Both the position numbers and the translations under genes were made by a program. The notes under the pieces were generated by a model. The model was not told the origin of the DNA and did no database searches. It was given only the letters and a program-made list of their open reading frames with translations. Below are positions 16,612 to 21,949 of a DNA stretch of 21,949 bases, piece after piece. Origin of the DNA: a virus; IMG/VR virus record IMGVR_UViG_3300046727_000146, positions 1 to 21,949 of that record. One strand, 5' to 3'. The stretch's first letter is position 1, and every line of letters starts with the position of its first letter.

Positions 16612-16962
16612 CTATCTGGTGGGCCGCTTCTTGGGTTTTCCGTTGAGAATGTAGATCCCCTTGCTGGCGGCAAAAGCGGCAATCATGCGCCTCTCGTCCA
16701 GGGACAGGAGCCGCCAAAACCGGACGAGGGCAGCCTCCTCGCGGATCTCGACGGGCTCGCGGTTATCTGGAGTGCTGTCCGCGAAAAGATCGGCAGGTCC
16801 GACTCCTAACGCGGTGGCAATGCGCCGCATCCAGTCCTCGTTCAGACGGCGGTCGCCTAGCTCCAGCCGCGAGAGTTGCTGAACGCTGGTGCCGACACGT
16901 TCGGCAACCTCTTCCAACGTCAGTCTTCTGGCGAGCCGCAACGGACGTATGCGATTGGGCAT
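16612..16962 (-). CDS. CI-like XRE-family repressor
   Basis: The start chosen is ATG 16962, giving 116 residues (M-P-N-R-I-R-P-L). The frame stays open further upstream but that part crosses the operator region and looks non-coding. Residues 5-60 are an XRE helix-turn-helix: R-L-A-R-R-L-T-L-E-E-V-A-E-R-V-G-T-S-V-Q-Q-L-S-R-L-E-x-G-D-R, then L-N-E-D-W-M-R-R-I-A-T-A-L-G-V. The rest holds a helix (L-V-R-F-W-R-L-L-S-L-D-E-R-R-M-I-A-A-F) that may be for oligomerisation, and a basic tail. There is no LexA-type S24 peptidase domain, so RecA-stimulated self-cleavage is unlikely and induction would need an antirepressor or another route. It is divergent from the Cro-like gene and probably binds the TCACCA-N3-TGGTGA sites. 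No strong Shine-Dalgarno is seen. Confidence 0.75.
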   Translation of the reverse strand: MPNRIRPLRLARRLTLEEVAERVGTSVQQLSRLELGDRRLNEDWMRRIATALGVGPADLFADSTPDNREPVEIREEAALVRFWRLLSLDERRMIAAFAASKGIYILNGKPKKRPTR

Positions 16963-16970
16963 ATCGCATA
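16948..16970. promoter_or_regulatory. Palindrome over the repressor start codon
   Basis: TATGCGAT and ATCGCATA form a perfect inverted repeat with eight-base arms and a seven-base spacer. The repressor ATG (16962-16960) lies inside it. The sequence is unrelated to the TCACCA operators. It could be a binding site for a second regulator such as the Cro-like protein, or an RNA hairpin that limits repressor translation. Confidence 0.5.
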
Positions 16971-16995
16971 ATGGTTGTTCTGGTGATTCATCCCA

Positions 16996-17010
16996 CGCCC
17001 AGGCTGGTGA
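16996..17010. promoter_or_regulatory. Possible degenerate operator OR2 (CGCCCA-GGC-TGGTGA)
   Basis: The right arm is a perfect TGGTGA and the left arm matches three of six positions (nine of twelve overall). Alone this would be weak. However, its centre is exactly 35 bp from OR1, the same spacing and the same side relative to the repressor gene as the OL1/OL2 pair. Confidence 0.4.
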
Positions 17011-17020
17011 GATGACATCC

Positions 17021-17049
17021 TTGACAGGGTTCACCAGCGTGGTGACAAT
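17021..17049 (+). promoter_or_regulatory. Rightward early promoter PR
   Basis: A perfect TTGACA at 17021-17026 is followed after 17 bases by GACAAT (17044-17049, four of six -10 positions). A perfect operator copy (17031-17045) fills the spacer and touches the -10. Predicted transcription start is about 17055-17058, at the ATG of the Cro-like gene, so the message would have essentially no leader. Confidence 0.7.
17031..17045. promoter_or_regulatory. Operator OR1 (TCACCA-GCG-TGGTGA)
   Basis: This is a perfect 15-bp inverted repeat with arms identical to OL2 and a different three-base spacer. That is what is expected of a protein-binding site read in its arms. It lies between the -35 and -10 of PR, so occupancy would block RNA polymerase. 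Confidence 0.7.
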
Positions 17050-17055
17050 CCCCTC

Positions 17056-17262
17056 ATGCGCCTTCGCCAGTATCTTTCTACCCACGATATCTCCATGGCG
17101 GCGTTCGCAGCGCGCATCGGCGTCAGCACGCAGGCGGTTCATCGGTATCTGACTGGCGACCGTCTGCCGCGTCCCGACGTGATGATGCGGATCAAGGAAG
17201 AGACGCGCGGCGCGGTGCAACCCAACGACTGGTTCCGTCCTCCTGGGGAGGCCGCCGCCTGA
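17056..17262 (+). CDS. Cro-like helix-turn-helix protein
   Basis: The protein has 68 residues with its ATG at 17056. Residues 14-34 form a helix-turn-helix (S-M-A-A-F-A-A-R-I-G-V-S-T-Q-A-V-H-R-Y-L-T-G), followed by D-R-L-P-R-P-D-V-M-M-R-I, in the style of small phage Cro/YdaS-type regulators that pair with a divergent repressor. The C terminus is short and Pro/Ala-rich, with no extra domain. It is the first gene under PR. There is no Shine-Dalgarno, and the predicted transcription start falls on or next to the ATG, which suggests leaderless translation. It probably binds the shared operators and turns the repressor off during lytic growth. Confidence 0.75.
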   Translation: MRLRQYLSTHDISMAAFAARIGVSTQAVHRYLTGDRLPRPDVMMRIKEETRGAVQPNDWFRPPGEAAA

Positions 17263-17298
17263 ACACCTGACGACGTCACGACCAAGGGAGGGAACCGT

Positions 17299-17370
17299 AT
17301 GCACACCAATGACATGACGCTCACACGCTTACCCTCGCTCGGCCGTCTCTGGCGTGGCTTGGTGGCGTAG
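17299..17370 (+). CDS. 23-residue small protein or leader peptide
   Basis: ATG 17299 has a very strong ribosome-binding site (AGGGAGGGAA, about six bases upstream) and opens a frame of 23 residues: M-H-T-N-D-M-T-L-T-R-L, ending R-G-L-V-A. Its stop overlaps the GTG start of the next gene (TAGTG). The ribosome-binding site is better than that of most neighbours, so it is likely translated. It may serve mainly to couple translation into the following gene. No function is recognised. Confidence 0.5.
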   Translation: MHTNDMTLTRLPSLGRLWRGLVA

Positions 17371-19610: not shown

Positions 19611-19868
19611 ATGTCCATCAGCTATTCACATTCGAGGCCGGAAGGCCGATCCCACCGCGCCAAGATCGAGCGCTGGATATTGCCGCGCCTGACGCCTGGC
19701 TGCCGGGTGCCGTCGGCAACCTGGATGGCGAAGTTCCTGGGGATTTCGTCCTCTGAGGGCGCGCGGCAGATCCGGCGGGCGCTCACGGAAGCTGGCATTG
19801 CCACGGAGACGCGAGGCGTGGGGCGTGACCGGCGGATTTATGTGGTGACATTGGGAGAGCGGCCATGA
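19611..19868 (+). CDS. Winged-helix-like small protein before the replication gene
   Basis: The start chosen is ATG 19611, with AAGGGAG eight bases upstream, giving 85 residues. An in-frame ATG at 19434 would add 59 residues of unusual composition that overlap RNA hairpins. The body reads H-R-A-K-I-E-R-W-I-L-P-R-L, then S-A-T-W-M-A-K-F-L-G-I-S-S-S-E-G-A-R-Q-I-R-R-A-L-T-E-A-G-I, then T-R-G-V-G-R-D-R-R-I-Y-V-V. This is helix, helix-turn-helix, and a beta wing ending in I-Y-V-V, as in small winged-helix DNA-binding proteins. Just before a replication initiator it may bind the origin or regulate early genes. The stop overlaps the next start by four bases (ATGA). Confidence 0.6.
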   Translation: MSISYSHSRPEGRSHRAKIERWILPRLTPGCRVPSATWMAKFLGISSSEGARQIRRALTEAGIATETRGVGRDRRIYVVTLGERP

Positions 19869-20806
19869 GTGATCTGCCGCATCCGCTGACGCCACCGGAC
19901 TGCGACTTACGCGGCTTCGAGTGGATGCAGCTCTGGGGCCATCGCATGTTCACCAGCAGCTGGTATCGGGCCGCCCGCAAGGATGGCCGCGGCGGCATCG
20001 CGTCGCTCAAGCTCTATTGGTCCGCCATGCTGCAATGCCCTGCTGGCAGCTTGCCCAACGACGAGGAGGAGCTTTGCATGCTGGCCGACTTTGGCGAGGA
20101 CATGCGGGCGTGGGCCAGGCACCGTCCGGTTGCCATGCACGGGTTCGTGCTGTGCGCCGACAATCGCTGGTATCATCCGGTGGTAGCGGAACAGGTGCTC
20201 GACGCCTACGACCGCAAGCTCAAATCAGCCCGCACCAGGGAGGTTGACCGGGAGCGTCTCAAGCGGTGGAGGGCAAACCACAACGGCGCCACCCCACCCG
20301 ACAAACCCAACGGGCAAACCCACCCAGAACCACCTCGTGAAACGCGTTTCGAAACGCCATCCGAAACGCATCACATACCGCTAATGCGAATGCCTGAAAC
20401 GCGTTTCGAAACGCAGCATGAAACGGGGTGTGAAACCCCCGACGAAACGTCGCGCGCGACTACAACACAGTACCAGACAAGACAAGAAACCCTACCCCAT
20501 ACCCCTTCCCACGGCTGGGAAGGGGCCGGCACCCCGGCCGAGCCGGGGGCCCCGCCAGCGCGGCGCGCCGATGGAACCAATCCTCGGGCTGTAGGCACAA
20601 ACCCACGGGAGATCGGCGGAAACCCACGGAAATCCGCCATAAATCCACGAGCCATGGGAACCAACCCACGGGCAAAACCACCTCGCAGTGGCTTCAAAGC
20701 CGTCGAGCAACGGCTGGCCACAATCGAGGGAACCGCCGAGGAAGTGGCGGAAATGCACGAGTTTGCCAGCCGGCTGCGGCTGGTGGCAGGAGGCTCCAGT
20801 GGCTGA
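19865..20806 (+). CDS. DUF1376 (YdaU-like) replication protein
   Basis: The protein has 313 residues and starts at ATG 19865 in ATGA overlap. Residues about 5-125 match the DUF1376 pattern: P-H-P-L-T-P-P-D-C-D-L-R-G-F-E-W-M, then W-x-A-x-x-Q-x-P-A-G-S-L-P-N-D-E-E-E-L-C, then G-F-V-L-C-A-D-N-R-W-Y-H-P-V-V-A-E-Q. DUF1376 proteins occupy the replication-initiator position in many temperate phages. Residues 125-155 are basic helix. Residues 159-197 are four-residue E-T-x-x repeats, residues 238-270 seven-residue N-P-R repeats, and a short C-terminal helix follows. The repeat region coincides with DNA repeats that look like an origin. AGGAGG near its end is the ribosome-binding site of the next gene, whose GTG overlaps by eight bases. 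Confidence 0.75.
   Translation: MSDLPHPLTPPDCDLRGFEWMQLWGHRMFTSSWYRAARKDGRGGIASLKLYWSAMLQCPAGSLPNDEEELCMLADFGEDMRAWARHRPVAMHGFVLCADNRWYHPVVAEQVLDAYDRKLKSARTREVDRERLKRWRANHNGATPPDKPNGQTHPEPPRETRFETPSETHHIPLMRMPETRFETQHETGCETPDETSRATTTQYQTRQETLPHTPSHGWEGAGTPAEPGAPPARRADGTNPRAVGTNPREIGGNPRKSAINPRAMGTNPRAKPPRSGFKAVEQRLATIEGTAEEVAEMHEFASRLRLVAGGSSG
20339..20455. repeat. 12-bp GAAACG iteron-like array
   Basis: GAAACG begins at 20339, 20351 and 20363 (block A) and at 20396, 20408, 20420, 20432 (GAAACC) and 20444 (block B), exactly every 12 bases within each block. Each block opens with the 20-mer TGAAACGCGTTTCGAAACGC, which contains the palindrome GAAACGCGTTTC. The array encodes E-T-x-x units. Seven of eight E-T pairs use exactly GAA ACG although other codons exist, which hints at selection on the DNA or at recent duplication. 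Confidence 0.8.
20502..20553. other. Two strong hairpins between the repeat arrays
   Basis: CCCCTTCCCA (20502-20511) and TGGGAAGGGG (20516-20525) are a perfect ten-base inverted repeat with a four-base loop. CCCCGGC (20532-20538) and GCCGGGG (20542-20548) follow with a three-base loop, and GGGGCC (20522-20527) can also pair with GGCCCC (20548-20553). They lie inside the coding region. The stretch just before them (about 20460-20500) is poorer in GC than its surroundings. Confidence 0.75.
20579..20671. repeat. Five 21-bp-spaced AAYCCWCGR units
   Basis: Nine-base units start at 20579 (AATCCTCGG), 20600, 20621 (both AACCCACGG), 20642 (AATCCACGA) and 20663 (AACCCACGG). The spacing is exactly 21 bases throughout, two helical turns, so the same face of the DNA is presented each time. 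They encode N-P-R within seven-residue repeats. The 12 bases between units vary. Confidence 0.8.
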
Positions 20807-21272
20807 CCAGCTCATCGTCCAGCGTTGGCTCATCCGGCTCGGGAAAATCACCAGCGCCAGGATCAGCGAGGATGACGCCGCCGATTTCATCGAGGAATTC
20901 TCCCCGCTTCTCGCCATGCGGTTCGGCGATGACGCGTTCACAAATGTCTCGCTCGAGTTCGTCGCAGCGGAATGTAAATACCTCCCCACATACGGCGAAC
21001 TCGTCGCCCTGCTCCGCGACTGGAAACGACAACTGCCAGCGCCATCCTATCCCGCCCTCAACGACAACGTGGCCGACATGGACGCCAAGAACCGACACTG
21101 GCTCAGCTACTACCAACGCCGCGAACGCGAGGGCTTCGCACCGCTCCGCGAAAAGGATGGCAGGTTGTCACGGCCGGATATCACCGATTGGCGCGAACAC
21201 ACCCTCAGCCTGATCCGCCAACACGCCCCCGACGCCTGGGCCTACCTCCACCGCGATCACCATGCCGCTTGA
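20799..21272 (+). CDS. Putative replication accessory protein (helicase-loader position)
   Basis: The protein has 157 residues. The start chosen is GTG 20799, with AGGAGG six bases upstream and an overlap of eight bases with the DUF1376 gene. The frame is open upstream but has no better start. The sequence is largely helical (V-Q-R-W-L-I-R-L-G-K-I, A-A-D-F-I-E-E-F-S-P-L-L-A-M-R-F) with P-T-Y-G-E-L-V-A-L-L-R-D-W near the middle, a pattern seen in phage proteins that follow initiators, and a charged C terminus. By position it resembles lambda P or DnaC-type loaders, but no AAA+ Walker motif is present. I do not recognise a named family. Confidence 0.6.
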   Translation: MADQLIVQRWLIRLGKITSARISEDDAADFIEEFSPLLAMRFGDDAFTNVSLEFVAAECKYLPTYGELVALLRDWKRQLPAPSYPALNDNVADMDAKNRHWLSYYQRREREGFAPLREKDGRLSRPDITDWREHTLSLIRQHAPDAWAYLHRDHHAA

Positions 21273-21277
21273 CGCCA
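21261..21277. repeat. 17-bp direct repeat, copy 1
   Basis: The 17 bases CATGCCGCTTGACGCCA recur exactly at 21481-21497, 220 bp further on. Here they cover the end of the helicase-loader-position gene (A-A-stop) and the start of the zinc-ribbon gene (M-P-L-D-A). Confidence 0.85.
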
Positions 21278-21492
21278 CCATGACCCACCAACCCACCTTC
21301 GAGCCCCTCTGGTGCGCCTGCAAAGCCTGCGGCCACTGGTGGGACGACTGGCAGCCGTCAAACTGCCCCATCGCCACCTGGGTCGCGCACGTCCGAACGC
21401 TCCAGTGTCCCAACTGCGGCCAGGGCCGACGCAACGTCCTCCTCCGCACCAAGCCACTCGCCGAAAAGCCCGATGGCCCACATGCCGCTTGA
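21262..21492 (+). CDS. Zinc-ribbon small protein
   Basis: The protein has 76 residues from ATG 21262, overlapping the previous stop. ATG 21280 (M-T-H-Q-P) is an alternative start. It shows two CxxC pairs: Cys20/Cys23 (C-K-A-C-G-H-W) and Cys49/Cys52 (C-P-N-C-G-Q-G), about 25 residues apart and with Trp between, which is a zinc-ribbon layout. Cys18 and Cys35 are extra. Small phage zinc-ribbon proteins often bind nucleic acid or RNA polymerase. Here it lies between replication genes and a NusG-like gene, so a role in transcription or replication is likely but not shown. Confidence 0.65.
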   Translation: MPLDATMTHQPTFEPLWCACKACGHWWDDWQPSNCPIATWVAHVRTLQCPNCGQGRRNVLLRTKPLAEKPDGPHAA

Positions 21493-21497
21493 CGCCA
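21481..21497. repeat. 17-bp direct repeat, copy 2
   Basis: This is identical to 21261-21277 and again spans the end of one gene (A-A-stop of the zinc-ribbon protein) and the start of the next (M-P-L-D-A of the NusG-like protein). Confidence 0.85.
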
Positions 21498-21949
21498 GCG
21501 TGAACGAGTGCGTAGCTATACCAGAACCCGCAGTCGGTGACCTCGGGTGCGGTAGCCGTTGGGGCGTCGTCCACACCCACCCACAAGCCGAGCATTGGGC
21601 CAGCGCCAACCTCCGCCGCCAAGGCTACCAAGTCTGGCTCCTCACCCGCTCAGTCCTGCGACGCGATCCAGTCACCCGCACCATGACACGCCGCGTCGAC
21701 GTGCCGCTGTTCAGCAGCTACCTGTTCGTGGCAGTGCCACTGTCCCAGTGGGCGCCAATCCCCCACTCCCGCGGAGTTAATCGCCTCATGATGGCAGGAC
21801 CAAACCCGTATCTACTGCCAGAAGGCGCTGTGAGCGCGCTACGCGGCGTAGAGGCGTTCGCCGCTACCCAACAGCGGAAAGAGGCCCAATGGCACCTGGG
21901 CGACGCTGTGGCGCCTCGCGTGGGGCCTCTGGCAGGGCTGCCAGAGGCC
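21482..21949 (+). CDS. NusG/RfaH-like antitermination protein (3' truncated)
   Basis: The frame starts at ATG 21482 (in overlap with the previous stop) and runs 156 codons to the window edge without a stop. Residues 26-120 match the NusG N-terminal domain: R-W-G-V-V-H-T-H-P-Q-A-E-H-W-A-S-A-N-L-R-R-Q-G-Y-Q-V-W-L, then D-V-P-L-F-S-S-Y-L-F-V-A-V, then the G-V-N-R-L-M-M helix-strand and L-P-E-G-A-V-S-A-L. A KOW domain begins near residue 139 (L-G-D-A-V-A-P-R-V-G-P-L-A-G-L). NusG paralogues of the RfaH kind keep RNA polymerase going through terminators. As a late member of the early operon it could license late-gene transcription. A first start at GTG 21500 is also possible. Confidence 0.75.
   Translation, partial: MPLDASVNECVAIPEPAVGDLGCGSRWGVVHTHPQAEHWASANLRRQGYQVWLLTRSVLRRDPVTRTMTRRVDVPLFSSYLFVAVPLSQWAPIPHSRGVNRLMMAGPNPYLLPEGAVSALRGVEAFAATQQRKEAQWHLGDAVAPRVGPLAGLPEA

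Follow-up and report, generated by a model that had tools for sequence, protein, structure and literature searches.

In bacteriophage lambda, the initiator O binds iterons that lie within its own gene and opens the AT-rich region that adjoins them (PMC7466680), the AT-rich tract having nearly all of its purines on one strand (PMC5043065). The general idea of origin repeats inside a gene is also known from Pseudomonas phage MD8, where repeats inside the O-like gene have been noted and an in-gene origin proposed (PMC8508860). The present work concerns a 21,949-bp linear virus record (the window, by which we mean the whole stretch of DNA that was analysed), in which an initial annotation had read repeats inside a DUF1376-type gene as an origin of this kind. 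The locus resembles the lambda-type origins (lambda, the Stx phages and, as proposed, MD8) in that candidate iterons lie in the coding sequence of a putative initiator, with a strand-asymmetric AT-rich segment alongside, and in that the gene is an early one between a Cro-type regulator and the next replication gene. It differs in its putative initiator, a DUF1376 protein without detected relation to O, and in its half-sites, which follow the pattern G-N-N-A-C and are spaced 12 bp apart; moreover, many DUF1376 relatives have a hexamer run, (GGGANA)n, instead of an AT-rich tract.

Two further systems invite comparison. With the iteron origins of plasmids P1, F and RK2 the locus shares a direct-repeat array, a putative initiator protein and an adjoining AT-rich segment, but here the array is inside the candidate initiator gene, is out of helical phase (12 bp) and contains palindromic pairs; a search of the window for DnaA boxes gave none. 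In the DnaA-trio of bacterial oriC, short tandem repeats on one strand beside the initiator sites mark the start of unwinding. Short one-strand tandem repeats near candidate initiator sites are likewise a feature of many DUF1376 genes, although these repeats have a period of 6 rather than 3 and are G-rich, and the corresponding segment of the window itself is without a repeat. DUF1376 proteins are common in proteobacterial phages and prophages and are catalogued as of unknown function.

Results

Taken by itself, the window protein has a weak Pfam match to DUF1376 (PF07120, E 0.0015, 19-21 bits, against a gathering cut-off of 30.1). The assignment is backed by a match to PHROG 22470, 'replication protein' (E 2e-19), by PF07120 matches in 56/56 alignment members at E <= 0.01 (the best, 1e-11, among the relatives), and by the predicted fold. 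The only other Pfam family matched was Phage_186_Fil, weakly, in 12 alignment members; the lambda O family was absent from the Pfam matches of the window protein and the alignment members. An AlphaFold2 model of the N-terminal domain had a mean pLDDT of 93, and its nearest neighbours in BFVD were DUF1376 proteins and, weakly, phage replisome-organiser proteins. Comparison of this model with PDB structures gave nothing significant (best E 0.3); the weak neighbours were mostly winged-helix proteins, mostly MarR-type repressors, with two plasmid initiators among them (E 1.4-2.0), and a profile search of PDB sequences gave no meaningful match. The predicted fold is compatible with, rather than proof of, a DNA-binding initiator.

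The order of CI-like, Cro-like, DUF1376 and next gene in the window (Table 1) fits the initial description of the gene as placed like lambda O. The order in phage phi297 is cI, cro, cII, a DUF1376 'replication protein' and a DnaB-like helicase, and its DUF1376 gene holds GTGAC/GTCAC repeats followed by (ACAGGG)5; in D14L the DUF1376 gene is followed by an annotated DnaC/DnaI loader and a helicase. A lambda-type context, that is, an early gene 3' of divergent CI/Cro genes and before a loader or helicase, is found through the HTH genes of the window together with phi297 and D14L, the window's own next gene being a candidate for the latter role. A longer ORF that contains this 157-aa gene (20688-21272) had no Pfam or PHROG match, and the model of the 157-aa product was of low confidence (pLDDT 68) and too poor for structure comparison. 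Distant relatives of the gene occur in the Komagataeibacter phages phiKX1 and phiKX2, and also after the DUF1376 genes of three homologous loci (L161, L158 and L221). We note that a 23-bp direct repeat (21261-21283 and 21481-21503; CATGCCGCTTGACGCCACCATGA / ...AGCGTGA, 91%) lies at two successive gene junctions. The NusG-domain gene that begins at 21473 may encode an antitermination-type regulator, and within it, at the window end, is a 12-bp perfect inverted repeat (21924-21949, GGCCTCTGGCAG-TG-CTGCCAGAGGCC).

Table 1. Positions of the genes and sequence features discussed in the text
Feature	Position	Strand	Remarks
CI-like HTH repressor	16612..17304	-	Pfam HTH_31/HTH_3; divergent from early genes
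Cro-like HTH gene	17056..17262	+	Pfam HTH_3, E 1.5e-6; Cro/C1-type HTH
DUF1376-type replication (initiator-like) gene	19865..20806	+	313 aa; conserved N-terminal domain, about codons 1-140
Iteron block 1 (array 1)	20339..20374	+	GAAACG at 20339, 20351, 20363 (12-bp spacing); CGTTTC at 20345
Iteron block 2 (array 1)	20396..20461	+	GAAACG at 20396, 20408, 20420, 20444; GAAACC at 20432; CGTTTC at 20402; frozen tail GAAACGTCGCGCGCGACT
AT-rich, nearly T-free segment, candidate DNA unwinding element	20462..20489	+	ACAACACAGTACCAGACAAGACAAGAAA; conserved in five relatives
Four C-tracts	20490..20510	+	CCCTACCCCATACCCCTTCCC, pattern match; four G-tracts on the template strand
Perfect hairpin	20502..20525		CCCCTTCCCA-CGGC-TGGGAAGGGG, 10-bp stem
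21-bp array (array 2), 5 units	20570..20674	+	Peptide heptads GTNPRAx; 105-bp insertion private to the window; outside the conserved element
Gene after the DUF1376 gene	20799..21272	+	157 aa; overlaps the DUF1376-gene stop; in the place of a helicase loader/helicase

The positions of the units confirm the 12-bp GAAACG array (array 1, 20339-20449) as eight units in two blocks, with a spacing of exactly 12 bp inside each block and 33 bp between the blocks; seven units are GAAACG and one is GAAACC. Overlooked initially were two copies of CGTTTC on the opposite strand, which create perfect palindromes of 12-14 bp (GAAACGCGTTTC and GCGTTTCGAAACGC). In a randomisation in which each codon was swapped for a random synonym, weighted by the codon usage of sampled window genes, the protein predicted 1.19 GAAACG/CGTTTC words in the gene against the 9 present, a number reached in 0/20,000 trials. 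All eight glutamate codons of the array are GAA, a codon used for 29% of glutamates in the sampled genes.

By the initial annotation's own standard, an origin would have been refuted by homologues in which the codons vary freely; in array 1, homologues freeze them. In a codon alignment of six relatives, synonymous variation was counted in columns where a degenerate amino acid is invariant. It was present in 82/105 such columns of the domain and in 6/28 of those from array 1 to the AT-rich segment (Fisher p 5e-8; amino-acid-matched expectation for the 28 columns, 22.5). Block 2 shows nearly no synonymous change across the six; block 1 is kept in three close relatives (L005-L007) and shortened in two (L008 and L009). 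A scan with the 17-bp tail GAAACGTCGCGCGCGAC gave 11 loci, the array being present only in the five known relatives and the other matches being due to chance. In some homologues the DNA word is preserved although it is read in another frame: the 19-bp word GAAACGCGTTTCGAAACGC, read as ETRFET in the window, has a counterpart in L190, GGAAACGCGTTTCGAAACGCG, that is read as GNAFRNA, and in L146 GTGAAACGCGTTTCA is read as VKRVS. As one DNA word appears in several frames, selection on the peptide cannot explain it. Array 1 is real and is selected as DNA, because the relatives keep the same signals even in other frames, and the locus has repeated candidate initiator sites in a replication gene that are conserved as DNA, as in the lambda type. 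An overlapping gene across array 1 was considered and rejected, since no alternative frame is open in all six relatives.

Immediately after the array comes a 28-bp segment that is richer in AT than any other of that length in the gene (AT 0.61; mean over the gene, 0.36) and has one T in 28, so that an AT-rich, strand-asymmetric segment lies beside the candidate iterons as it does in lambda. Where other DUF1376 genes have a (GGGANA)n run, it is at this position, and the runs in relatives are purine-rich (mean purine 0.73). At the place of the C-tracts a C-rich stretch is also present in L005-L009. The hairpin has a different perfect counterpart, with stems of G/C7-8, at the same place in relatives (L005-L009, L143 and L052; not all homologues have one), and from this comparison the pairing seems to be kept while the letters change. 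In the window (maximum at 20273) and in G006 (15494 vs 15447) the cumulative GC skew peaks at the element; it does not in G001, G002 or phi297, and the measure is confounded by transcription.

The initial annotation also described, about 130 bp after array 1, five nine-base units spaced exactly 21 bp, and took these as a second iteron family with a different helical phasing. The number, spacing and distance stand, whereas the nine-base cores, which start at 20578, are identical in 3/5 units (AACCCACGG), the others being AATCCTCGG and AATCCACGA. Compared with L005-L009, this array 2 is an exact insertion of 105 bp (5 x 21 bp) between GGCGCGCC and AAACCACC. Its 126 inter-unit DNA matches compare with 125.4 +/- 5.7 from the heptapeptide alone, and 2384/5000 synonymous randomisations reach 126; no DNA-level signal beyond the peptide was detected. 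No relatives of the array were found in viral contigs (an exact scan gave 1 locus and a relaxed scan 4, all five unrelated sequences), and nothing like it was seen in other DUF1376 genes. Because it is a private insertion, with the similarity that its peptide gives and no equivalent in other DUF1376 genes, array 2 was left out of the element. The hairpin segment just 5' of the insertion also differs from that of the relatives.

A scan for three GAAACG words at 12-bp spacing gave at least 119 stretches, six of them in DUF1376 genes 34-40% identical to that of the window; in these six the array lies just after the domain, and a GGACAG run comes next in 5/6. Since such a scan presupposes GAAACG, homologues were then gathered by protein alone, and at least 80 virus loci and at least 80 prokaryote genome loci, with the earlier ones, made up 172 genes in 138 clusters. 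For the prokaryote genome contigs, a query with the whole protein gave no match and one with the domain alignment gave 177. The counts from pattern scans and homologue searches are samples, taken among the matches listed, and the clusters are phylogenetically non-independent.

For each segment of a cluster, the commonest 6-mer on both strands was compared with synonymous randomisations (p < 0.01), and repetition beyond that given by the protein was found in the linker of 52/137 clusters, in the domain of 1/137 and beyond codon 215 in 2/126, among the homologues listed. The commonest linker words were of the GAAACG, GTGAC/GTCAC, GGGAC/GTCCC and GGAAT types, of which the GGGAC words may overlap the hexamer run in some clusters, and about one-third of the clusters were without a clear repeat by simple count. 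Repeat type tracks the domain tree, with 48 changes against a shuffled mean of 77 (0/200), the GAAACG type having 6 changes in 19 rows; a domain that reads the repeat would lead to such a pattern, and so would joint inheritance alone.

The period-6 run downstream in many homologues is mostly GGGACA, with GGGAGA, GGGAAA and GGGATA also present, and encodes GQ, TG or DR depending on the frame. Among the matches listed, (GGGACA)2 is present in 35 homologue clusters, in all three frames (23/8/4). A protein-blind scan of IMG/VR for (GGGACA)4 gave at least 120 loci, and 87 of the 120 listed were inside ORFs matching the DUF1376 profile. These 87 were spread over all three frames (59/24/4) and lay without exception on the coding strand (0 on the opposite one); of the other 33, several at contig ends resemble the rear parts of DUF1376 genes by eye, and some are low-complexity genes without relation to the family. 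In 37/137 clusters the coding strand of the linker has at least four G-tracts, a motif present in the domain of 0/138 clusters and further on in 0/109. The clade of the window has its G-tracts on the other strand than these 37 clusters.

Discussion

The repeats, the DNA-level selection on the array and the downstream segment, the conservation across the family and the gene context are direct observations. By analogy with lambda, we consider it likely that the array is a phage replication origin embedded in the gene that encodes its own initiator, with the GAAACG sites bound by the DUF1376 protein and the AT-rich segment as the site of melting. That part of the initial reading which saw a lambda-type element within the gene holds up for array 1 as DNA, with its frozen codons and its appearance in other frames; the part that saw two iteron families does not. 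We propose that the GAAACG half-sites, arranged as 12-bp direct repeats and two palindromes, would be recognised by the DUF1376 protein, probably through its N-terminal domain, and that binding would distort the DNA and melt the strand-asymmetric segment just downstream. The helicase could then be loaded at the melted segment, aided by the products of the next genes, and the linker peptide (ETxxETxx...) would be largely a by-product of the DNA. Points against an origin are the 12-bp spacing, which does not correspond to full turns of the helix, the inconsistent position of the GC-skew switch relative to the element, the lack of a significant PDB match for the domain model, and the roughly one-third of the clusters listed that show no clear repeat by simple count.

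Another possibility, although an unlikely one, is that the element is a DNA control site of a different kind, such as an operator through which early transcription is controlled by a phage repressor (the DUF1376 protein or a different one), or a partition or packaging site, which is in this gene by chance. Palindromic half-sites would suit any dimeric DNA-binding protein and MarR-type repressors predominate among the weak PDB neighbours of the domain model, but the element is linked to a single family of replication genes across widely different phages and prophages, and the adjoining AT-rich or strand-asymmetric segment has no obvious operator role. In addition, a promoter and terminator scan gave nothing above chance, with no promoter-like site around the element (promoters by sigma-70 consensus only).

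We regard as improbable an element that acts at the RNA level, with the purine runs and hairpins working in the mRNA for translation control, anti-termination or protection from Rho. As such an element would have it, all the runs are on the coding strand and a hairpin lies downstream in the clade of the window; however, palindromic repeats such as GAAACGCGTTTC suit double-stranded DNA better, the hairpins are not common to all homologues, and the window has no Rfam match.

It is very improbable that the ETxx tetrapeptides, and the GQ, TG and DR dipeptides elsewhere, are kept for the use of an unstructured linker, with the DNA repeats a consequence of this or of slippage. Slippage does expand and contract repeat arrays, 12-bp units preserve the frame, and GAAACG after the domain is mostly in the ET frame (64/94 occurrences in the homologues listed). 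This explanation is nevertheless contradicted by the frozen synonymous sites, by the uniform use of GAA and by the restriction of the hexamer runs to the coding strand, and is largely refuted by the frame switches, in which the same DNA gives quite different peptides. Finally, the view that array 2 supplies the same origin with a second family of iterons can hardly be maintained. The exact 21-bp spacing of its five units, equal to two helical turns, is set against its absence from all five close relatives, its nature as an exact insertion, a DNA similarity that does not exceed that given by its peptide, and the lack of a homologue elsewhere in the scans.

A broader but tentative and rather doubtful extension is that DUF1376 genes are widespread self-contained phage replicons. 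Each would carry an in-gene origin in one of several interchangeable half-site dialects (GAAAC, GTGAC, GGGAC and GGAAT, or G-N-N-A-C/T), with the period-6 (GGGANA)n run as unwinding element and its four or more G-tracts as a possible G-quadruplex on the displaced strand. In the open-licence literature searched we found no link between DUF1376 and an origin, nor an extension of the in-gene origin idea to this unrelated and widespread gene family. If true, the sequence would suffice to locate the origin, and to name its initiator, in many temperate phages, both uncultured and cultured. The GQGQ, TGTG and DRDR dipeptide runs in replication proteins would then be shadows of a DNA signal, and the family would provide natural pairs of protein and site with different half-sites, in which the co-evolution of an initiator and its origin could be studied in the same DNA.
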